Positions 19,839-43,800 of a stretch of DNA of 64,000 nucleotides are shown in pieces; within the stretch, counting starts at the first letter, position 1; every line of letters starts with the position of its first letter. Location: assembly GCA_030627205.1 (NCBI GenBank), contig DAOUSN010000007.1:1-64000 (forward strand). The letters are read 5' to 3'. Made by a program: the position numbers and the translations under genes. The stretch comes from Methylococcaceae bacterium (GTDB lineage Bacteria > Pseudomonadota > Gammaproteobacteria > Methylococcales > Methylomonadaceae). The notes beneath the pieces are model-generated. The model saw nothing but the letters and a program-made list of their open reading frames with translations. It did not search any database and was not told where the DNA came from.

Positions 19839-22800
19839 TTAAACTTCGGGTTCTGACTCATCATCTTGTGTATAAGGTGCTTGATGAATCCCGTCAGGAT
19901 TTAATTGAGCTTCTCGCTCTGGCGTTAATTCACGTTCCAACCAATCTATATCTTGGTCTTCTATTTTATGTAACACTACAAATTCATCTCGTTGAGAACC
20001 GACTGTTCCATAGTAATTAAAACCATAACTTAATTGTGCATAACCGCCAATCATATGGGTGGGTTTAACCGTAATTCGAGTCACACTATTTAAGATACCG
20101 CCGCGTTTATTCGTCGTATTTGACCCAGGTGTATTAATATGTTTTTCTTGAGCATGATACATCATTGCCATCCCTTCAGGAATCCGTTGACTGACAATCA
20201 CTCGTGCAACCGTCGCTCCATTGGTATTTAAGGCTTCAACCCAATCATTATCTTTTAAACCGATTGATTTTGCATCCTTTTCAGAAATCCAAACGCCAGG
20301 TCCGCCACGGAATAAGGTCAACATCCGCAAATTATCATTATAGGTACTATGAATGCCCCATTTAGAATGCGGAGTAATCCAATTTAAAGTTAAATGCGGC
20401 TTATCTTTGATAATTTTTTCAATTCCTTGCGTCGCGCTTAAATCAACAGGCGGACGATAGGTACAAAATGCTTCACCAAAATCACGCATCCATTGATGAT
20501 CTTGATAAAACTGGGCTCTACCTGTTAAAGTTCTAAATGGGATATGCTCGTGAATATTAGTATAACCTGCATTATAACTGACTTTTTCTGATTCAATTCC
20601 ACTCCATGTAGGGGCAGTAATAATTTTCCGTGGTTGGGCTTTAATATCACGGAAGGTGATTTTGTCATCTTCACGCGATTTAGCTAAATGAACATGATCT
20701 ATGCCCGTTTTTTTAGATAAGGATTCCCAAGATCTAACTGCCACATCACCATTAGTTTCAGGGGCTAAGGCTAAAATCGTTTCGCAAACATTAATATCAC
20801 TTTCTAAGGACGGCATTCCTTTTGAGATACCTTCATCTTGAATGGTGTAACAAATTTCTTTTAAATGCTCGTACTCTTTATCGGTATTCCAATCAATGCC
20901 TTTAACATTATTACCGAGTTTAGTTAATAGTGGACCTAAGGCCGTAAATTTCTTATAGGTATTACCAAAATCACGCTCAACTACTTTTAAAAGAGGTAAA
21001 GTTTTCCCTGGAATAGGTTCACATTCGCCGCGTTTCCAATCTTTAACGTCCATAGATTGCGCTAATTCAGCAGGGGTATCATGCAAAATAGGTAAAGCAA
21101 CCAGATCTTTTTGAGTCCCTAAATGTTTTTCTGCTAACGGAGAATAATGTTTGGCTAAAGTTTTAAAAATTTGCCAATCTGATTTAGACTCCCAACCCGG
21201 ATTAACGGCTTCGGTTAACGGATGAATAAAGGGGTGCATATCAGTAGTATTCAAATCATCTTTTTCATACCAAGTTGCCGTAGGTAAAATAATATCAGAA
21301 TACGCGCCGGTGGAATTCATCCGAAAATTAATATCAACTAATAAATCTAATTTAGCTATCGGCGCATCTTTGTGCCATTTAATCTCATTGCCTTTTGCAT
21401 CTTGTAGGACATCTTGCATCACTCCATTTTGCGCGCCTAATAGATGTTTTAAGAAATACTCATGTCCCTTTGCACTAGAGCCTAAAAGATTCGCTCGCCA
21501 GACAAAAAGGTTACGGGGATGATTTTCTTTAGCATCAATATCTTCAGCGGCAAAGGCTATTTCACCACTTTTAAGCTTTTCAACTACATAATCAGAAATG
21601 CCTTTTTCATCTGTTGCCCCTGCTGCCATCGCTTCTTTGCAAATTTCTAAGGGGTTTTTATTAAAATGTGGCGCGGAAGGCAACCAACCTAAACGCTGTG
21701 AAACCACGTTATAATCAGCAAGATTACTACCTTTATAGCTTGCTTTCGCATTAGCCGCTAATAAACCGTCAGCATCTAAACGTTCATAACGCCATTGGTC
21801 GGTATGAAAATAGAAAAAAGTTGTTCCATTCATCTGACGAGGAGGACGATGCCAATCTAATCCAAAAGCGATAGGCAACCAACCTGCCTGTGGACGTAAT
21901 TTTTCTTGCCCAACATAATGCGCCCAACCGCCGCCACTTTGTCCCACGCAACCACACATGTGTAGTAAGTTCATAATGGCGCGATAATTCATATCATTGT
22001 GATACCAATGATTAATGCCTGCCCCTAAAATAACCATAGATTTACCGCGTGTTTTTGCAGCATTGTCAGCAAATTCACGTCCTGTACGAATAATATCCGC
22101 TTGTTTAACCCCCGTGATATTTTCAGCCCATGCTGGGGTATTCGGAGTATTTGCATCATCATAACCTGAGGCAACATCACCCCCTAAGCCCCGATCAATA
22201 CCATATTGTGCGACTTGTAAATCAAATACCGTTGCAATCAGAATCTCTTTTCCATTGACGGTTATTTTTTTCACAGGCACATTGCGTTTTATCCCTAAAT
22301 CTTTACCTGAATCAAAGTTAGGAAATAAAACCTCAATGACTTCATCATTATTAGAGAGTAAACTTAATTGCGGGTGAGTGTCATTATCGCCTTTTTTAGG
22401 TAATAAATTCCATTTTCCCTCCTCTCCCCAACGAAAACCAATAGAACCATTCGGTGCGATAATATCGCCTGTTTTTTCATCAAGAACCACTGTTTTCCAT
22501 TCAGGGTTATTATCTTCACCTAATGCGTTATCAAAATCAGCGGCTCTAACTAAACGTCCCGTGGTAAAGGATTTATCATAAGGTTCTAGCATCACTAACA
22601 TCGGTAAATCGGTATAAGTTCGGGCATATTCTTGGAAATAATCATCTTGGTTGTCGATGAAAAATTCCTTAAGGGCTACATGTCCCATCGCAAGAAAAAC
22701 TGCGGCATCCGTTCCTTGTTTTGCTGGCATCCAAAGGTCAGCAAATTTAACATATTCGGCATAATCGGGAGCAATCGCAACGACTTTTGTTCCCTTATAA

Positions 22801-23615
22801 CGGACTTCTGAATAAAAATGCGCATCAGGGGTACGGGTCATCGGTAAATTTGCCCCCGCAACGATTAAATAAGTTGAGTTATACCAGTCGGCTGATTCGG
22901 GAACATCCGTTTGCTCGCCCCATGTTTGCGGTGATGCAGGGGGTAAATCACAATACCAATCATAGAATGATAAAGATACAGCCCCAATTAATGAGAGGTA
23001 ACGACTACCTGCGGCATAACTAATCATCGACATGGCAGGAATAGGCGAAAAACCTACAACACGATCAGGCCCATGTTCTTTAGCGGTATAGACATTAGCC
23101 GCTGCCATAATTTCATTAACTTCATCCCATTCGATACGAACAAATCCGCCTAATCCTCTGACAGAAGTATATTGTTTACGTTTTGCAGAATCTTTCTGAA
23201 TCGCTTTCCATGATTCAACAGGGTCTTTTCCTGTTGCGCGTTCCGCACGATAAAGCGTGACTAAACGCTCTCGTATCATGGGGTGTTTAACACGGTTTGG
23301 GCTGTATAAATACCATGAGAAACTTGCACCACGTTGGCAACCACGAGGTTCATGATTGGGCATATCAGGACGTGTACGAGGATAGTCGGTTGCTTGCATT
23401 TCAAAAGCAACTAAGCCATTTTTAACATGCACATTCCAAGAACAGCCTCCGGTACAATTGACCCCATGGGTTGAACGGACGACTTTATCAAAACGCCAAC
23501 GATTGCGATAACCATCTTCCCAATGTCGGCTTTCATCGGTAACAATACCGTGACCATTGGAAAACGTGCTTTTTACTTTTTTAAAAAAATTTAATCGGTC
23601 GAGAAAATGACTCAT
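19839..23615 (-). CDS. narG: Respiratory nitrate reductase alpha subunit NarG (orphan)
   Basis: Full-length molybdenum subunit of 1258 residues. It reduces nitrate to nitrite at a bis-MGD cofactor on the cytoplasmic face, taking electrons from NarI through NarH. The FS0 cluster ligands are intact: His50, Cys54, Cys58 and Cys93 (THGVNCTGGCSW; EPRGCQRGASFSWYLYS). The Mo-ligand region SFYDWYCDLPPASPQTWGEQ and the C-terminal YHAQEKHINTPGS are also present. Shine-Dalgarno AGGAG precedes the ATG. narH, narJ, narI and narK are absent on both sides, which is highly unusual, since NarG is normally first in narGHJI. Without NarH it cannot receive quinol electrons, so the partners must lie elsewhere or the gene is a relic. 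Confidence 0.95.
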   Translation of the reverse strand: MSHFLDRLNFFKKVKSTFSNGHGIVTDESRHWEDGYRNRWRFDKVVRSTHGVNCTGGCSWNVHVKNGLVAFEMQATDYPRTRPDMPNHEPRGCQRGASFSWYLYSPNRVKHPMIRERLVTLYRAERATGKDPVESWKAIQKDSAKRKQYTSVRGLGGFVRIEWDEVNEIMAAANVYTAKEHGPDRVVGFSPIPAMSMISYAAGSRYLSLIGAVSLSFYDWYCDLPPASPQTWGEQTDVPESADWYNSTYLIVAGANLPMTRTPDAHFYSEVRYKGTKVVAIAPDYAEYVKFADLWMPAKQGTDAAVFLAMGHVALKEFFIDNQDDYFQEYARTYTDLPMLVMLEPYDKSFTTGRLVRAADFDNALGEDNNPEWKTVVLDEKTGDIIAPNGSIGFRWGEEGKWNLLPKKGDNDTHPQLSLLSNNDEVIEVLFPNFDSGKDLGIKRNVPVKKITVNGKEILIATVFDLQVAQYGIDRGLGGDVASGYDDANTPNTPAWAENITGVKQADIIRTGREFADNAAKTRGKSMVILGAGINHWYHNDMNYRAIMNLLHMCGCVGQSGGGWAHYVGQEKLRPQAGWLPIAFGLDWHRPPRQMNGTTFFYFHTDQWRYERLDADGLLAANAKASYKGSNLADYNVVSQRLGWLPSAPHFNKNPLEICKEAMAAGATDEKGISDYVVEKLKSGEIAFAAEDIDAKENHPRNLFVWRANLLGSSAKGHEYFLKHLLGAQNGVMQDVLQDAKGNEIKWHKDAPIAKLDLLVDINFRMNSTGAYSDIILPTATWYEKDDLNTTDMHPFIHPLTEAVNPGWESKSDWQIFKTLAKHYSPLAEKHLGTQKDLVALPILHDTPAELAQSMDVKDWKRGECEPIPGKTLPLLKVVERDFGNTYKKFTALGPLLTKLGNNVKGIDWNTDKEYEHLKEICYTIQDEGISKGMPSLESDINVCETILALAPETNGDVAVRSWESLSKKTGIDHVHLAKSREDDKITFRDIKAQPRKIITAPTWSGIESEKVSYNAGYTNIHEHIPFRTLTGRAQFYQDHQWMRDFGEAFCTYRPPVDLSATQGIEKIIKDKPHLTLNWITPHSKWGIHSTYNDNLRMLTLFRGGPGVWISEKDAKSIGLKDNDWVEALNTNGATVARVIVSQRIPEGMAMMYHAQEKHINTPGSNTTNKRGGILNSVTRITVKPTHMIGGYAQLSYGFNYYGTVGSQRDEFVVLHKIEDQDIDWLERELTPEREAQLNPDGIHQAPYTQDDESEPEV

Positions 23616-37749: not shown

Positions 37750-38784
37750 ATGGCTTTATTAAGTTATAAGCACCTCTCTATTTTAGCTTTTGTATTTTTG
37801 ATAACAGCTTGCAATCCTGAGCCGATTGTTTATCATCAAGATTATTATAAAGGACTCACTCAACCTATAGTACCTGTAATAAATTCTACTGTATCTACAA
37901 CTAAAAAAACGCCAAAACAAATAGGAAATTATTCGGCAAAAAAATTAACAGGGGCTTATGCTAATTCTTCAACCGCTCATAAATTTATTGGTTATATGGG
38001 TAAACAATATGGGTTTACACAAAACTACTTAAATGGTCTGTTTTCAAAAGCCCAACATTTACAGTCGGTGGTAAAATTAGAAACTCCAATTTCAAAAGTA
38101 AAAACAACATTTATTCCTTCACCTGGTAGTTGGTCACGTTATCGTAAGAAATTTTTAACCACTAGACATATTAACAATGGGATAAAATTTTGGCGTAAAA
38201 ATGCGGTAGATATTCAAAAAGCAAGTGCGACCTATAAAGTTAATCCTGAATATATTGTGGCAATCATTGGTGTAGAAACATTCTTTGGATTGAATGTTGG
38301 AAAAACACGGACTTTAGATGCTCTAAGTACTTTAGCTTTTCATACAAAAAGACGGAGTAAATTTTTTACTTCTGAATTAGAAAATTTTTTATTGATGACT
38401 AGAGAAGAAGGTTATGAACCGAGGAAAATTGTAGGTTCTTGGGCAGGAGCTATGGGTTTAGGACAATTTATGCCTAGTAGTTTTCGTCGTTTAGCGGTAG
38501 ATTTTAACCGTGATGGTAAACGAGATTTATGGAATCCAACTGATGCAATTGGCAGTGTTGCCAATTATTTTTCACATAGTGGCTGGCAGTTTAATCAACC
38601 AGTTACCACTCAAGTATCAAAAAGTTTGGGAACTAATATCATTAAATTAAGTGCTTATTCTGGTAATGAGTTTTGGCGTACTTATAAAAATTTTAAGGTA
38701 ATTAAAAAATATAATCATAGTAACCATTACGCAATGGCAGTACATCAGCTTTCTCAAGCAATTAAGCAAGGTTATCAGCAGTAG
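37750..38784 (+). CDS. mltB: Membrane-bound lytic murein transglycosylase B
   Basis: Lipoprotein of 344 residues. The signal peptide ends at lipobox LITAC (Cys21). The MltB/SLT family 3 domain covers the rest. Catalytic Glu lies in VAIIGVETFFGLNVG; downstream GSWAGAMGLGQFMPSSF and DFNRDGKRDLWNPTDAIGSV are diagnostic. It cleaves peptidoglycan glycan strands with 1,6-anhydro ring formation at the outer membrane. Shine-Dalgarno AGGA precedes the ATG. rlpA, often adjacent, is absent here. Confidence 0.93.
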   Translation: MALLSYKHLSILAFVFLITACNPEPIVYHQDYYKGLTQPIVPVINSTVSTTKKTPKQIGNYSAKKLTGAYANSSTAHKFIGYMGKQYGFTQNYLNGLFSKAQHLQSVVKLETPISKVKTTFIPSPGSWSRYRKKFLTTRHINNGIKFWRKNAVDIQKASATYKVNPEYIVAIIGVETFFGLNVGKTRTLDALSTLAFHTKRRSKFFTSELENFLLMTREEGYEPRKIVGSWAGAMGLGQFMPSSFRRLAVDFNRDGKRDLWNPTDAIGSVANYFSHSGWQFNQPVTTQVSKSLGTNIIKLSAYSGNEFWRTYKNFKVIKKYNHSNHYAMAVHQLSQAIKQGYQQ

Positions 38785-38800
38785 TGATAAACTCTTTTTT

Positions 38801-38932
38801 GACAGGCAAAAAAAACCTCTCAATACTTTAAACGATAATTAAAAGTAAAGAGAGGTTAAAAATCAAGCAGACTATTAATGAGGAGGAACTGCTTGTCAGT
38901 ACAACACACTAGAAGGTTAAAACATTGCGTAC
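38801..38932 (-). ncRNA. Candidate 3'-UTR small RNA with anti-Shine-Dalgarno loop
   Basis: Read on the minus strand, downstream of the 50-residue membrane protein gene: hairpin CAAGCAG / CTGCTTG (38864-38895) with an 18-base loop containing TTCCTCCTC, a short A/T linker, then the terminator hairpin and T8. Two stem-loops, a C-rich loop complementary to ribosome binding sites and a strong terminator are the layout of many trans-acting sRNAs. Structure is seen; function is inferred. The 5' end is unknown. Confidence 0.35.
38806..38857 (-). terminator. Strong intrinsic terminator (minus strand)
   Basis: Stem AACCTCTC / GAGAGGTT (38814-38821 with 38850-38857), an A-A internal loop and an inner TACTTT / AAAGTA stem. 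On the minus strand the stem runs into a tract of eight T; on the plus strand there is no T tract. It therefore serves the gene at 38933-39085, not mltB. Confidence 0.8.
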
Positions 38933-39085
38933 TTAATTTTGTAATTTAGCACGCATTACAATGTTGCTATAAATAGCAGCACTAGCAAATAAAACAGTTG
39001 AAACAATAAACTGACCTGAAATAAAACTCCAGACACCCATGATAAATAATAAACCTATAACAATATCTTTGTTAAAGTCACTCAT
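38933..39085 (-). CDS. 50-residue small membrane protein
   Basis: Short gene of 50 codons plus stop, not recognised by family. It starts MSDFNKDIVIGLLFIMGVW and has two hydrophobic helices (about 8-22 and 25-40) separated by SGQ, ending in a basic tail RAKLQN. AGGA lies upstream at a long spacing. It has its own terminator 75 bases downstream. The clean open frame, two amphipathic-free helices and a dedicated terminator support it as a real gene. Confidence 0.6.
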   Translation of the reverse strand: MSDFNKDIVIGLLFIMGVWSFISGQFIVSTVLFASAAIYSNIVMRAKLQN

Positions 39086-39253
39086 AATTACAGTTAGTTC
39101 CTGATTAATAATTTAAAATCTTTAAAGTTGTGCTTAGTATACAGTGGATAAAAATGTTTACAATACCGCAAATACTAAATTTATTATTTACTATTAAGAA
39201 ACAATGGTTTTGTCAACCTTTATGACAGTTAGATTACAACAAAGGTGTTACCA

Positions 39254-40150
39254 ATGGATAAATTAACGAGTATGAATGTATTTGTTCGTGTTGCAAAATT
39301 AGGTGGTTTTGCTAAAGCTGCTAGAGACTTAGGTTTATCTAGAGCAATGGTCACCAAACATGTTATGCAATTAGAAGGTAAATTAAGTACCAGACTTTTT
39401 AATAGGACTACACGCAGCTTAGGTCTAACTGAAGTAGGAGAGTCTTATTTAGAACGTTGTCAACAAGTATTACAAGATGTTGAAGAAATGGAAGCTGCGA
39501 TTACCCATTTACAATCTGAACCTAAAGGAACGTTAAAAATAAGTTCGCCACCTGTGATTGGAGCTGTCCATATTGCCCCTGCATTAGCTGAATTTTTGAA
39601 AATTCATTCAGAATTATCAGTTGATATGATTTTAAAAACTACTGCTAGTGATTTAATTGATGAGGTTCTTGATATAACTATTCATTTAGGGAAATTAAAT
39701 GATAGTAGTTTAGTTGCACGTAAACTGGCAAGTTCTCCTCTAGTTGTCTGTGCATCGCCTGCCTATTTGGAACAATATGGAATACCGGAAACACCTAATG
39801 ATCTCAATAATCATAGTTGTTTAGTTAATTGGGCGTTACCTCCACGTGATTTATGGTATTTTTCGCAAGGCAAGTCTATAAGAAAAATTAAAGTGTCAGG
39901 ACGAATGCAATCAAATGTTGCTGACCCGATGCGTATTGCGGCAATTAGTGGGGTAGGTTTGGTTATGCTACCACGTTACATTCTTGGTAATGATATAAAA
40001 AAAGGAAAATTACAGGTTGTTTTAGAATCTTATAGCCCTCCTCCTCTAGAAATTTATGCAATTTATCCTCATCGTAAATATTTATCAGTAAAAGTGCGTT
40101 TATTTTTAGAATTTTTAAAGCCATGGTTACAACAAAAATTAAGTGAATGA
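39254..40150 (+). CDS. LysR-family transcriptional regulator
   Basis: Regulator of 298 residues from the ATG at 39254; an in-frame GTG lies nine bases upstream, but AAAGGTG is well placed as Shine-Dalgarno for the ATG. The N-terminal winged helix-turn-helix (about 1-60) has FVRVAKLGGFAKAARDLGLSR and TRLFNRTTRSLGLTE. The C-terminal substrate-binding domain from about 90 has LKISSPPVIG and ends with PHRKYLSVKVRLFLEFL. It resembles the CrgA/DsdC-type subgroup. The effector is unknown and the neighbours give no clear target. Confidence 0.9.
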   Translation: MDKLTSMNVFVRVAKLGGFAKAARDLGLSRAMVTKHVMQLEGKLSTRLFNRTTRSLGLTEVGESYLERCQQVLQDVEEMEAAITHLQSEPKGTLKISSPPVIGAVHIAPALAEFLKIHSELSVDMILKTTASDLIDEVLDITIHLGKLNDSSLVARKLASSPLVVCASPAYLEQYGIPETPNDLNNHSCLVNWALPPRDLWYFSQGKSIRKIKVSGRMQSNVADPMRIAAISGVGLVMLPRYILGNDIKKGKLQVVLESYSPPPLEIYAIYPHRKYLSVKVRLFLEFLKPWLQQKLSE

Positions 40151-40713: not shown

Positions 40714-42039
40714 TTACTCTTCAATAAGTGAACGCGCAAAGGCATTTGTTGCTGGTTGAATTAAATATTCAAGTAATGTTCGCTCACCTGTATTAATTAA
40801 AACTTCTGCTGGCATTCCTGGGATAAGAACTAAATTACCTAATTTATCCTGACTTTCTTTCGTTAATTCTATTGTTGCCTGATAATATTTAAATCCTTGT
40901 TTTTCATCAGTAACACTATCGGCTGATAATTTTGTCACAATGCCTTCCATGGTTGGAGTGGTTTTACTTTTAAAAGAACTAAAACGTATTTCTGCAACTG
41001 AACCTATTTTAATGTTATCAATATCAACAAGTAAGACTTGAGCGTCAATAACTAAATCTTCATTTTCAGGAATAATATTCAAAATTGGTCTTCCAGCAAT
41101 AATAACCCCACCTTGTGTATTCATTTCTAAGCCTAAAATAATACCATCAACAGGGGCTATGATTTCAGTTCGTGCAACTTTATCTTGTTCTGCTCGTAAT
41201 CTTTCACTAATATCAAATAATTCGCCATTAACTTTTTCAAGTAGTCCTGCAACTTCCTCTTGAAACTTACGCTTAGTTTGGATGATTTGTAATTTTGTTT
41301 CAACCTTTTGCATTTTTGTTGAGGCTATTTCAGCAGTTAAGCTTGCTACTTCCCCATATAAACTCGTATGATTTCGCTCTAAATCTCTTAATCGTTGTCT
41401 ATCAGCAAAACCTTCTTTTAATAATTCTTTTAAATCTTTTATTTCTTCTGCAAATGAAATTATTAATTGTCGCTTACTATTCGTTTGAGCTACGAGTCCT
41501 TTAACTTTTGATATTAATTGTTGTATTCGTTGTTTTAGTAAACTAATTTCACCATTATAACTATCTTTTCTAGTTTTAAAGATGCCTTGCTGTCCTTGTA
41601 TTGCCTTGTTAACTCGAATATCTTTTAGTGAGTTTAATTTATCAAAATCAATTTTTTTAGCTTGCTTTCGTTCGGCAGTTAATCGCGCACTAAGTGCGGT
41701 TCTAATAATAAATTGTCCTTGTAATATCTCAACTTGTGCTTTAAACTGAGTATTATTAAGAGTGATTAACTTATCCCCTGTTTTTACTTGGTCACCATCT
41801 TTTACCCACAACTTTTTTACAATTCCACCTTCAAGATGTTGCACTGTTTTTCGATGTGATTTTACAGTAACAATTCCAGTTGCTAGAGAAGAGCTATCTA
41901 TAGGAGCAACAGCACTCCAAACTCCAAAAATACCGACAGTAAAAAACAGAATCAGATAACCTATACGTCTTACAGGTTTATCGTTGGCATTAACAGGAAT
42001 TTCTGTGGCGTTATTTTTTGATGCGGCTTTGATATTCAT
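40714..42039 (-). CDS. HlyD-family type I secretion periplasmic adaptor
   Basis: Membrane fusion protein of 441 residues. One N-terminal transmembrane helix (about 25-45, RRIGYLILFFTVGIFGVWS), a biotinyl-lipoyl half-motif (GIVTVKSHRKTVQHLEGGIV), a long coiled-coil hairpin (about 100-290) and the C-terminal half-motif APVDGIILGLEMNTQGGVI. It bridges the inner-membrane ABC transporter to a TolC-like channel. It follows the ABC gene by 21 bases. No outer-membrane channel gene is in the window. Confidence 0.9.
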   Translation of the reverse strand: MNIKAASKNNATEIPVNANDKPVRRIGYLILFFTVGIFGVWSAVAPIDSSSLATGIVTVKSHRKTVQHLEGGIVKKLWVKDGDQVKTGDKLITLNNTQFKAQVEILQGQFIIRTALSARLTAERKQAKKIDFDKLNSLKDIRVNKAIQGQQGIFKTRKDSYNGEISLLKQRIQQLISKVKGLVAQTNSKRQLIISFAEEIKDLKELLKEGFADRQRLRDLERNHTSLYGEVASLTAEIASTKMQKVETKLQIIQTKRKFQEEVAGLLEKVNGELFDISERLRAEQDKVARTEIIAPVDGIILGLEMNTQGGVIIAGRPILNIIPENEDLVIDAQVLLVDIDNIKIGSVAEIRFSSFKSKTTPTMEGIVTKLSADSVTDEKQGFKYYQATIELTKESQDKLGNLVLIPGMPAEVLINTGERTLLEYLIQPATNAFARSLIEE

Positions 42040-42060
42040 TGATTCGATATGCCATGATTC

Positions 42061-43800
42061 CTAAATAGGAATGGTGAATGTTTTAGGGATTACCTTTGGT
42101 GCAGGTTTAGATTGTTGTTGCTGTTCAGCTAATTTTGCAAGCACAACATCACGTTCACCATATAAAGCTAGTAAACCATCGTGTAAGACTAATAATTTAT
42201 CTAATTGCCCTAAGATATTATGTCGATGAGTGACGATAATAATGGTAGTATTTTTTTCTTTTAACCGCGCAATAGCAGCTGCTAAAGCTAGTTCTCCTTG
42301 GTCATCAAGATTAGAATTAGGCTCATCTAAAACCACAAGTTGGGGGTGTCCATAAAGAGCTCTCGCTAATCCAATACGTTGTTTTTGTCCACCAGAAAGG
42401 TTACCACCAGTTGCACCAATTAAGCTATCGTAACCATTTTCTAAATGTAAGATCATTTCATGAACACCTGCCATTTTAGCGGCGTCAATAACTTTGTCCG
42501 CATCAACTTCACCAAAACGAGCAATATTTTCACTAATTGTCCCTTCAAATAATTCTATATCTTGGGGTAAATAACCGATATGAGGGCCAAGCTCAATTCT
42601 ATTCCAATCAAAAATATCAGCCCCATCTAAACGAATTTTTCCATTTGTAGTTGGCCAGATACCTAATAAAGCTCTTACTAAACTAGATTTACCAGCTCCA
42701 CTTGGCCCTAAAATACCAACGCTATCACCTTTATCAATTACAAATGAAACCCCTTTTACTGATGGAATTTTAGCACCAGGTGGAACAACAACGGCCTGTT
42801 CTGCTTGAATTTTACCTTCAGGAGCTTGTAAGCTCATTTTTTCTTTATCGGCTGGGATCTGAGTTAATAATTCATTAAGCCTTGCATACTGAGTACGGGC
42901 AACAACAAATCCTTTCCACCCTCCTATCATTTGATCTATAGGCCCTAAGGCTTTACCTAAAAGTATAGAGCCTGCGATCATTAACCCCGGGCTAATTTCC
43001 TGTTGAATAGCAAGATACGCTCCTAGCCCTAAAACTAATGATTGAAACATGCCACGCAATGTTTTTGAAAGTGAGCTTAAAAATCCTGCTTTAGAACTTG
43101 CCTTCGCTTGTAATTCTAAAACATTGTGACTTTTATGTAACCAACGGTGAAAAATATTATCTAACATTCCCATCGACTCAATAACTTCCGCGTTGTTTAA
43201 GCTTTTATTTAATTGTTGTCGATTAATTGCCGCTAAAGTATTTGCTTCAGCAAGGGTTTTACTAGTTGACTTTTCATTAACAATAGCTAATATAATTAAA
43301 ATAACTCCAGAAAGAATAGCCGCCCAACCAAAATAAGGGTGAAATAAAAACATAATCCCTATGTAAAATGGCATCCACGGCGCGTCAAAAAAGGCAAATA
43401 AACCATTGCCAGTTAAAAACTGTCTAAGTGAGGTTAAATCATCTAAAGGTTGAGAGGACGCTTGTTGTCCTCCTGTATAAAGTGATCTTTTATAAGCAAT
43501 TTTAAATAAGCGCTGATTGAGTAGAATTTCAAGTCGCGCACTGACCCTAACTAATATTTGTGAGCGCACCATTTCTAACGCACCTTGGGTTAGAAAAATA
43601 GCAACTACAATTAAAGTTAGCATCAGTAGTGTAGTTTCACTGCGAGAACTTATAACCCGATCATAAAGCTGCAACATATAGATAACAGGGGTTAGCATAA
43701 GAATATTAATAATCATGCTAAATCCTGCCGCTGATATAAAAGCCCCTTTACATAGTAGTAAAGATTCCTGTAAATCAGATTTTACGCCCTTTTGTCTCAT
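42061..43800 (-). CDS. Type I secretion ABC transporter (PrtD family)
   Basis: Permease-ATPase fusion of 579 residues. The membrane domain (about 20-310) has six helices; the ATPase has Walker A GPSGAGKS, signature LSGGQKQRIGLARAL and Walker B LVVLDEPNSNLDDQ. There is no N-terminal C39 peptidase or C39-like domain, which places it with the PrtD/AprD exporters of unprocessed proteins bearing C-terminal signals. Its cargo is not encoded next to it. The two TerD genes upstream are on the same strand 176 bases away. Confidence 0.9.
   Translation of the reverse strand: MRQKGVKSDLQESLLLCKGAFISAAGFSMIINILMLTPVIYMLQLYDRVISSRSETTLLMLTLIVVAIFLTQGALEMVRSQILVRVSARLEILLNQRLFKIAYKRSLYTGGQQASSQPLDDLTSLRQFLTGNGLFAFFDAPWMPFYIGIMFLFHPYFGWAAILSGVILIILAIVNEKSTSKTLAEANTLAAINRQQLNKSLNNAEVIESMGMLDNIFHRWLHKSHNVLELQAKASSKAGFLSSLSKTLRGMFQSLVLGLGAYLAIQQEISPGLMIAGSILLGKALGPIDQMIGGWKGFVVARTQYARLNELLTQIPADKEKMSLQAPEGKIQAEQAVVVPPGAKIPSVKGVSFVIDKGDSVGILGPSGAGKSSLVRALLGIWPTTNGKIRLDGADIFDWNRIELGPHIGYLPQDIELFEGTISENIARFGEVDADKVIDAAKMAGVHEMILHLENGYDSLIGATGGNLSGGQKQRIGLARALYGHPQLVVLDEPNSNLDDQGELALAAAIARLKEKNTTIIIVTHRHNILGQLDKLLVLHDGLLALYGERDVVLAKLAEQQQQSKPAPKVIPKTFTIPI

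Follow-up and report, generated by a model that had tools for sequence, protein, structure and literature searches.

The sRNA locus and its gene neighbours

The 64,000-nt stretch of DNA analysed here (the window) carries on its minus strand a 50-codon ORF for a predicted membrane protein, followed by a small structured unit that ends in an intrinsic terminator. A gene for a LysR-family regulator is encoded divergently from the ORF, and an mltB-like lytic murein transglycosylase gene converges on the unit from its other side (Table 1). The leader of the unit begins at most 15 nt past the stop codon of the ORF, and 23 nt separate the end of the unit from the stop codon of the mltB-like gene, which bounds it. 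For the LysR-family gene of the window, the best NCBIfam models are YafC and AaeR, both below their cut-offs. At 40714-43800 on the minus strand, genes for an HlyD-family membrane-fusion protein and an ABC transporter lie next to each other, as in type I secretion.

Table 1. Features of the locus and their positions in the window
Feature	Position	Strand	Remarks
Lytic murein transglycosylase gene, mltB-like, convergent	37750-38784	+	Pfam SLT_2; TIGR02282 (MltB) above cut-off
sRNA unit (leader, CCUCC hairpin, terminator)	38808-38918	-	R1 match with E 7.7e-17, 82.1 bits; in the seed alignment
Intrinsic terminator hairpin with U8	38808-38857	-	Alone, folding z -6.3 versus shuffles; pair changes in the stem
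Hairpin 1, stem 7 bp, loop 18 nt	38864-38895	-	Direct reading, folding, pair changes
Loop motif UUCCUCCUC	38880-38888	-	Complementary to GAGGAGGAA (Shine-Dalgarno-like)
sRNA 5' leader AACCUUCUAGUGUGUUGUACUGA(C)	38896-38918	-	Degenerate CUUC in the window; ACCUCCUGGUGUUGUACC, with its second CUCC motif, is usual in relatives
50-codon ORF, predicted membrane protein	38933-39085	-	ATG start; upstream of the sRNA unit in the same predicted transcript
Putative sigma-70-type promoter TTGTAA-16-TATACT	39136-39163	-	Aligned and conserved in two genus-mates; position equals that of the relatives' TATAGT promoter-like block
Putative LysR-type operator, inverted repeat ATTGTTTCTTAATAGTAAATAAT	39183-39205		Relatives have TTTCT-N-GAAACAAT at the same place
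LysR-family regulator gene, divergent	39245-40150	+	Pfam HTH_1 and LysR_substrate; conserved start probably 39254

A hairpin and a terminator downstream of the ORF

On the minus strand, CAAGCAG (38895-38889) and CUGCUUG (38870-38864) enclose the loop UUCCUCCUCAUUAAUAGU (38888-38871) to form hairpin 1, and the terminator stem consists of AACCUCUC (38857-38850) and GAGAGGUU (38821-38814); a run of eight T occupies 38815-38808. This direct reading confirmed an earlier sequence-only reading, which had described a minus-strand hairpin with a C-rich loop and then a U8 terminator, located 3' of a 50-codon membrane-protein ORF. A 128-nt segment folded at -29.4 kcal/mol, as compared to -17.7 +/- 2.8 kcal/mol for its shuffled versions (z -4.1), and none of the 200 shuffles reached this value. 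By itself, the CCUCC hairpin does not stand out in folding energy (z -1.75, with 10 of 200 shuffles folding as well), and a single sequence thus does not prove it.

A simple terminator scan of the window reported none at the sRNA unit, presumably because the loop of the terminator exceeds the limit of 8 set in that scan. The terminator stem (38806-38858) is perfect on both strands and the U tract is present on the minus strand only, so that a role of the terminator for the convergent mltB-like gene is not obvious. The stem CAAGCAG/CUGCUUG, together with AUUUUU on the same strand, could in addition function as a weaker first terminator.

Conservation of the RNA across genomes

A covariance model built from 23 aligned copies (R1) matched 208 of the 237 genomes of the window's family, which we take to be Methylomonadaceae in GTDB naming; the matches cover 28 of 29 genera and 162 of 173 better-quality genomes, mostly with one copy per matching genome and in some cases with two to five. 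The R1 searches of family and class genomes employed stricter filters, with which weak matches are lost. When 21 of the 29 family genomes devoid of an R1 match were searched again with laxer filters, three matched at E <= 0.01 and three more at E <= 0.05.

Outside the family, R1 gave no match at E <= 0.01 and a single one at E 0.063 in 24 genomes that represent seven further families of the order. Nine of 369 genomes of the class matched; G000 and G014 among them belong to the family, and the remaining seven, from 367 genomes outside the family, are weak, with at most 34.6 bits versus 82.1 for the window copy. We note that L093, L094 and L097, which come from other families of the class and score 34.6, 31.1 and 26.8 bits, could be either chance matches or remote relatives of the RNA. 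A search of plasmids for the RNA gave no match.

The exact hairpin pattern occurred in 28 stretches over 84,980 species genomes. Twenty-seven bear Methylococcales names (the lineage was checked for four of the organism names) and one is titled only Gammaproteobacteria; named matches include Methylobacter marinus A45, Methylobacter luteus, Methyloglobulus, Methylicorpusculum, Methylomicrobium and Crenothrix polyspora. The 3' region of the ORF is also conserved as DNA. When the whole window was compared to Rfam, no match was found at gathering score. Judged by sequence comparison, the RNA is conserved across one family of type I methanotrophs, and we regard it as a real, conserved sRNA family that is absent from Rfam 15 and whose function we infer.

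Covariation and the coding strand of the RNA

Pairing was analyzed in an alignment of 82 distinct copies (A3), which was fitted to the model and therefore leans towards the structure in its pair counts. In A3, 97.8% of cells pair, 13 of the 14 pairs change on both sides (six of seven in hairpin 1 and all seven in the terminator stem), and none of 500 shuffles reached any of five covariation measures. Sliding the 3' partners lowered pairing to 56.5% or less, and 114 double-change cells were observed versus 18.4 expected; despite the lean of the model-fitted alignment, these values are far from each other. The R1 matches in 208 of 237 family genomes and the covariation of the stem thus prove, by comparison, the CCUCC hairpin.

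The stem of the hairpin drifts with compensation (CAAGCAG, CGAGCGG, CAAACA, AUAAGCUAG and others) and the loop stays CUCCUC. For instance, CAAACA/UGUUUG takes the place of CAAGCAG/CUGCUUG in L132-L134, L136, L140 and L143, with CUCCUCAU retained, and the loop is more constant than the stem that surrounds it. On the minus-strand reading, A3 has 52 G-U cells versus six A-C cells, which identifies the minus strand as that of the RNA. A mini-hairpin in the leader (GGU/ACC) was considered and rejected: compensation was seen by eye (GGU/ACC versus AGU/ACU), yet 94 to 500 of 500 shuffles scored as high.

CUCC motifs in the loop and the leader

CUCC is present in the loop of 69 of the 82 copies in A3, as compared to a mean of 14.6 after shuffling of the loop letters, and in the leader of 66 copies; the leader of the window copy is without it, and the leader motif is lost in several copies of the genus Methyloglobulus. 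Five of the 82 copies are devoid of CUCC in both leader and loop. The 23 seeds had been picked by a pattern with TCCT as an obligatory part of the loop, so that the loop counts lean towards the claim. A less biased count, from 30 loci chosen by protein homology alone, yielded 22 R1 matches at E <= 1, of which 20 are in A3 and 16 of those 20 have CUCC in the loop. By prediction, the motif has an unpaired probability of 0.90 on average in the loop; for the leader the value is 0.76, and for the terminator arm 0.05. The consensus of the motif is CCUCCUCAU, not the exact CCUCCUCCC.

The sequence-only reading had proposed that the C-rich loop is suited to Shine-Dalgarno pairing, and both the complementarity and its conservation in relatives were borne out. 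Loss of the loop where the terminator is kept, which it had named as the observation that would count against it, is mostly absent, with 69 of 82 copies keeping CUCC; the 13 copies without CUCC in the loop, three of which have a shortened loop (L018, L150 and L151), do go against it. Taken at this level, the proposal is supported: the RNA is structured, is under selection and has a loop with complementarity to Shine-Dalgarno sequences.

The 50-codon ORF and its loss

Of 61 genomes searched, 34 have homologues of the 50-aa protein; these genomes all belong to the window's family (37 family genomes searched), with up to six copies per genome. The window protein has no Pfam family at E 0.001 and no NCBIfam match. 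Among Pfam matches of nine homologues, taken up to E 10, the best is DUF6949 with E 0.0007 in one member, a family for which the window protein scores 15.1 bits versus a cut-off of 28.7; DUF1127 is not among these matches. Eight of the 30 homology-chosen loci (L020, L023-L026 and L028-L030) have no R1 match at E <= 1, and are protein paralogues without the RNA.

Gene neighbourhoods were compared over 105 sRNA rows, in which one place occurs twice (L022/L137) and two rows are weak and outside the family (L093 and L094). A divergent LysR gene is present in 68 of the 105 rows; 52 of these 68 have the ORF, and 16, from 10 genera, are without it and keep the RNA. Among the 37 rows without a LysR match, 25 have the ORF; because some LysR-less rows are near contig ends, the gene is not truly absent in every case. 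In genus g4, G008 displays the order LysR-ORF-RNA, and its genus-mate G035 has LysR-RNA with approximately the last four codons of the ORF and its stop. In two copies from genus g29, the C-terminal part of the ORF is still weakly recognisable (E 0.12 and 0.087), and one member each of g11 and g16 is without the ORF, which the other members of those genera keep. In several relatives, the ORF has thus been lost while the RNA and its putative promoter remain. Of the sequence-only reading of a 3'-UTR sRNA, the conserved RNA unit stands, and a location that is always within a 3' UTR does not, as seen from the 16 ORF-less loci.

Putative promoter, LysR-type regulator and Hfq

An upstream block, TTTCT...GAAACAAT..ATTTATTATT......TATTGTAT.CAAT......CTGTATAGT, was found in 68 distinct sequences with a motif chosen by eye and without chance control, and this motif failed in 36 of 105 rows, including that of the window. 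The putative promoter of the window aligns with two genus-mates over its whole extent. Within the window, neither promoter-like sites (four found versus 2.6 expected) nor operator matches (nine found versus 8.4 expected, the window copy having two mismatches) exceed chance.

In ORF-less copies, the distance from the -10 element to the first base of the model is 20 nt in G031 and G145, 50 nt in G035 and 55 nt in G021; in these copies, the RNA must be a primary transcript. A related upstream block is also present at ORF-RNA paralogues that have no LysR neighbour (e.g. L132, L133, L134, L150 and L151), which suggests that they are co-regulated. The hfq gene was present in all nine genomes searched, including that of the window.

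Search for targets

Two neighbouring genes were tried as targets and rejected. For lysR, duplex energies were no better than those of shuffles (two of 66 start regions below p 0.05, mean p 0.41), and a UACAACA match seen by eye in the lysR leader of the window is unsupported by these energies; for the start of the ORF itself, three of 70 start regions were below p 0.05 (mean p 0.44), again no better than shuffles.

In 26 genomes, the pattern TGAGGAGGA-N(1-8)-ATG was found in 62 rows versus 13 for the reversed pattern, with none in the window's genome; it is not enriched with respect to the plain Shine-Dalgarno version TAAGGAGGA, which gave 71 rows. Two GAGGAGG-N-ATG matches in the window are inside a long narG-like coding sequence and not at a start (a 1258-codon ORF at 19839-23615 on the minus strand, which we take to resemble the alpha subunit of respiratory nitrate reductase). 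Reading of 59 matching places led to 41 different ORFs with a length of 40 codons or more, among which two families recur: a 68-residue membrane protein (four genomes, three genera) and a CueO-like multicopper oxidase (three genomes, three genera). GAGGAGG precedes nine of 26 orthologues of the 68-residue gene, four of these nine being the sites that selected the family, and AAGGAGG precedes none. For the two candidate families, pairing with the cognate loop was no better than with permuted loops (0.54 and 0.62 of permutations did equally well; each genome was represented by one RNA copy, and the oxidase by 11 start regions). Since the loop-specific pattern is not commoner and cognate pairing is not better, we name no target; the 68-residue gene and the multicopper oxidase are only a lead.

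The 68-residue membrane protein was found in 27 of 34 family genomes (loci L238-L263), but not in that of the window, and has no Pfam or NCBIfam match; several genera show start regions of the AUGAGGAGG type. At L196, its gene lies between those of a Crp/Fnr-like regulator and a ThiF/MoeB-like protein.

A proposed mechanism and its alternatives

Beyond the conservation, structure, covariation, predicted loop exposure, genomic arrangement, ORF-less copies and hfq presence documented above, we consider it probable that the unit is a LysR-controlled, trans-acting sRNA of type I methanotrophs, which masks Shine-Dalgarno sites and derives either from a 3' UTR or from a free-standing gene. A single promoter, with the divergently encoded LysR-type regulator as its likely controller, would generate a transcript that often carries the 50-codon membrane-protein ORF and ends in an RNA of ~95-110 nt, composed of a single-stranded leader, a hairpin displaying CCUCCUC and the terminator. 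In loci with the ORF, RNase cleavage in the AU-rich stretch past the stop codon would probably free the RNA; in loci without it, the RNA would itself be the primary transcript. Hfq may bind the U-rich parts of the RNA, and the CUCC motifs of leader and loop would pair in trans with Shine-Dalgarno regions and block translation, probably with the participation of Hfq.

The RNA could, in principle, be nothing else than a 3'-UTR stabiliser and terminator of the membrane-protein mRNA, devoid of action in trans. A hairpin and a terminator would fit such a role, the 50-aa protein is itself conserved, and the ORF is just upstream in 52 of the 68 LysR-linked loci; in the other 16, however, the RNA persists without it, and in G035 it is near-intact after deletion of the ORF. 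Moreover, the unpaired loop is more constant than its stem, and we regard this explanation as unlikely. A small hydrophobic protein encoded beside an RNA with a Shine-Dalgarno-complementary loop also brings to mind a cis or feedback element, in which the CCUCC loop would pair with the start of its own ORF or with the divergent lysR, as in autoregulation or in a system resembling type I toxin-antitoxin pairs. The duplex energies with the lysR and ORF starts (mean p 0.41 and 0.44) argue against it, as do the persistence of ORF-less copies and the location of RNA and ORF on the same strand, with no antisense, making this arrangement very improbable.

The RNA might instead be a decoy for a protein or the ribosome, in which CCUCC would mimic the 3' end of 16S rRNA and titrate a factor that binds Shine-Dalgarno sequences, with no pairing to selected mRNAs; the ACCUCCU of the leader equals the anti-Shine-Dalgarno core, and the target tests yielded no specific target. 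Such titration would need very high expression, and the homologue-like NfeR1 pairs at start regions, according to the part of its description used here (PMC10746234); we thus hold a decoy to be improbable. A functional RNA on the plus strand, where the loop AUGAGGAGGAA would offer GGA motifs to CsrA/RsmA in the manner of a CsrB-like sponge, can draw on the fact that the reverse complement of the segment folds too, with GGAGG in its loop. It is contradicted by the 52 G-U versus six A-C cells, by pairing of 97.8% on the minus versus 93.8% on the plus strand, and by the U8 tail and promoter-like block, which face the minus strand, the plus strand having no U tract; we find it scarcely credible.

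The ORF-less copies represent a natural series in which to study the change of an mRNA 3' end into an independent sRNA gene. As a bolder extension, which we hold with more doubt than belief, the 3' UTR may repeatedly have turned into a free-standing sRNA gene, the ORF having been lost in separate lineages (between the genus-mates G008 and G035 of g4, in one member each of g11 and g16, and with a remnant in g29). The paralogues that carry the same promoter block might form a small multi-RNA regulon, the core Shine-Dalgarno-pairing riboregulator of methane oxidisers, acting perhaps on the CueO-like multicopper oxidase and the 68-residue membrane protein.

Methanotrophs are the main biological sink for methane before its escape from soils and sediments, and post-transcriptional control in these organisms is almost undescribed. 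We recognised no native methanotroph sRNA in the literature searched, which was open-licence only, with subscription journals outside its scope; the Methylomonas sRNA of PMC7720504 is synthetic, according to the part of that paper used here. With a single RNA that is family-wide, easy to probe and next to a candidate regulator, post-transcriptional control in methanotrophs becomes testable in cultured strains.

Comparison with known sRNAs

Two cyanobacterial sRNAs of Rfam gave weak scores: Yfr10 in the window (17.3 bits, E 6.2, gathering score 43) and NsiR1 in the terminator half of L036 (25 bits, E 0.29, gathering score 39). Both are far below their gathering scores, and were taken as chance matches and not as relatives.

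The loops of the CcsR RNAs carry CCUCCUCCC. In the sections of PMC8625941 and PMC10253847 used here, CcsR1-4 ('cuckoo' RNAs, CIN1 locus of Rhodobacter sphaeroides) are described as located in the 3' UTR of CcaF1, a gene for a small DUF1127 protein, excised by RNase E, and active in stress and C1 metabolism. As far as those sections describe it, the order is the same as here, with a small-protein gene, then a 3'-UTR RNA with a CCUCC-type motif, and the terminator last. Here too, the motif is in a hairpin loop (CUCC in 69 of 82 copies, predicted unpaired probability 0.90). In contrast, the present protein is not DUF1127, there is one RNA per locus versus four, and the organisms belong to another class; stand-alone copies exist, leader and stems are different, and there is no Rfam match at threshold.

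NfeR1 (alpha-r14) of Sinorhizobium meliloti is presented, in the part of PMC10746234 used here, as an RNA of three hairpins with divergent stems and the anti-Shine-Dalgarno motif CCUCCUCCC in unpaired regions, whose transcription is activated by the LysR-type LsrB and which silences mRNAs at their start region. Here, 68 of the 105 loci have a LysR gene in divergent orientation, a candidate activator, and a conserved upstream block contains TTTCT-N-GAAACAAT, a putative operator. The RNA described here differs in having two covarying hairpins, with two unpaired CUCC sites and a third CUCC that is paired in the terminator stem (0.05), in its motif CCUCCUCAU, and in a LysR gene that is adjacent and divergent. 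Rfam scans showed no sequence relation to NfeR1, and the resemblance is likely to be convergent.

As for Shine-Dalgarno-pairing sRNAs in general, what is found here is a conserved structured RNA with its own terminator. We propose that it would work like the alphaproteobacterial CcsR RNAs and NfeR1, the resemblance being one of working and not of membership.
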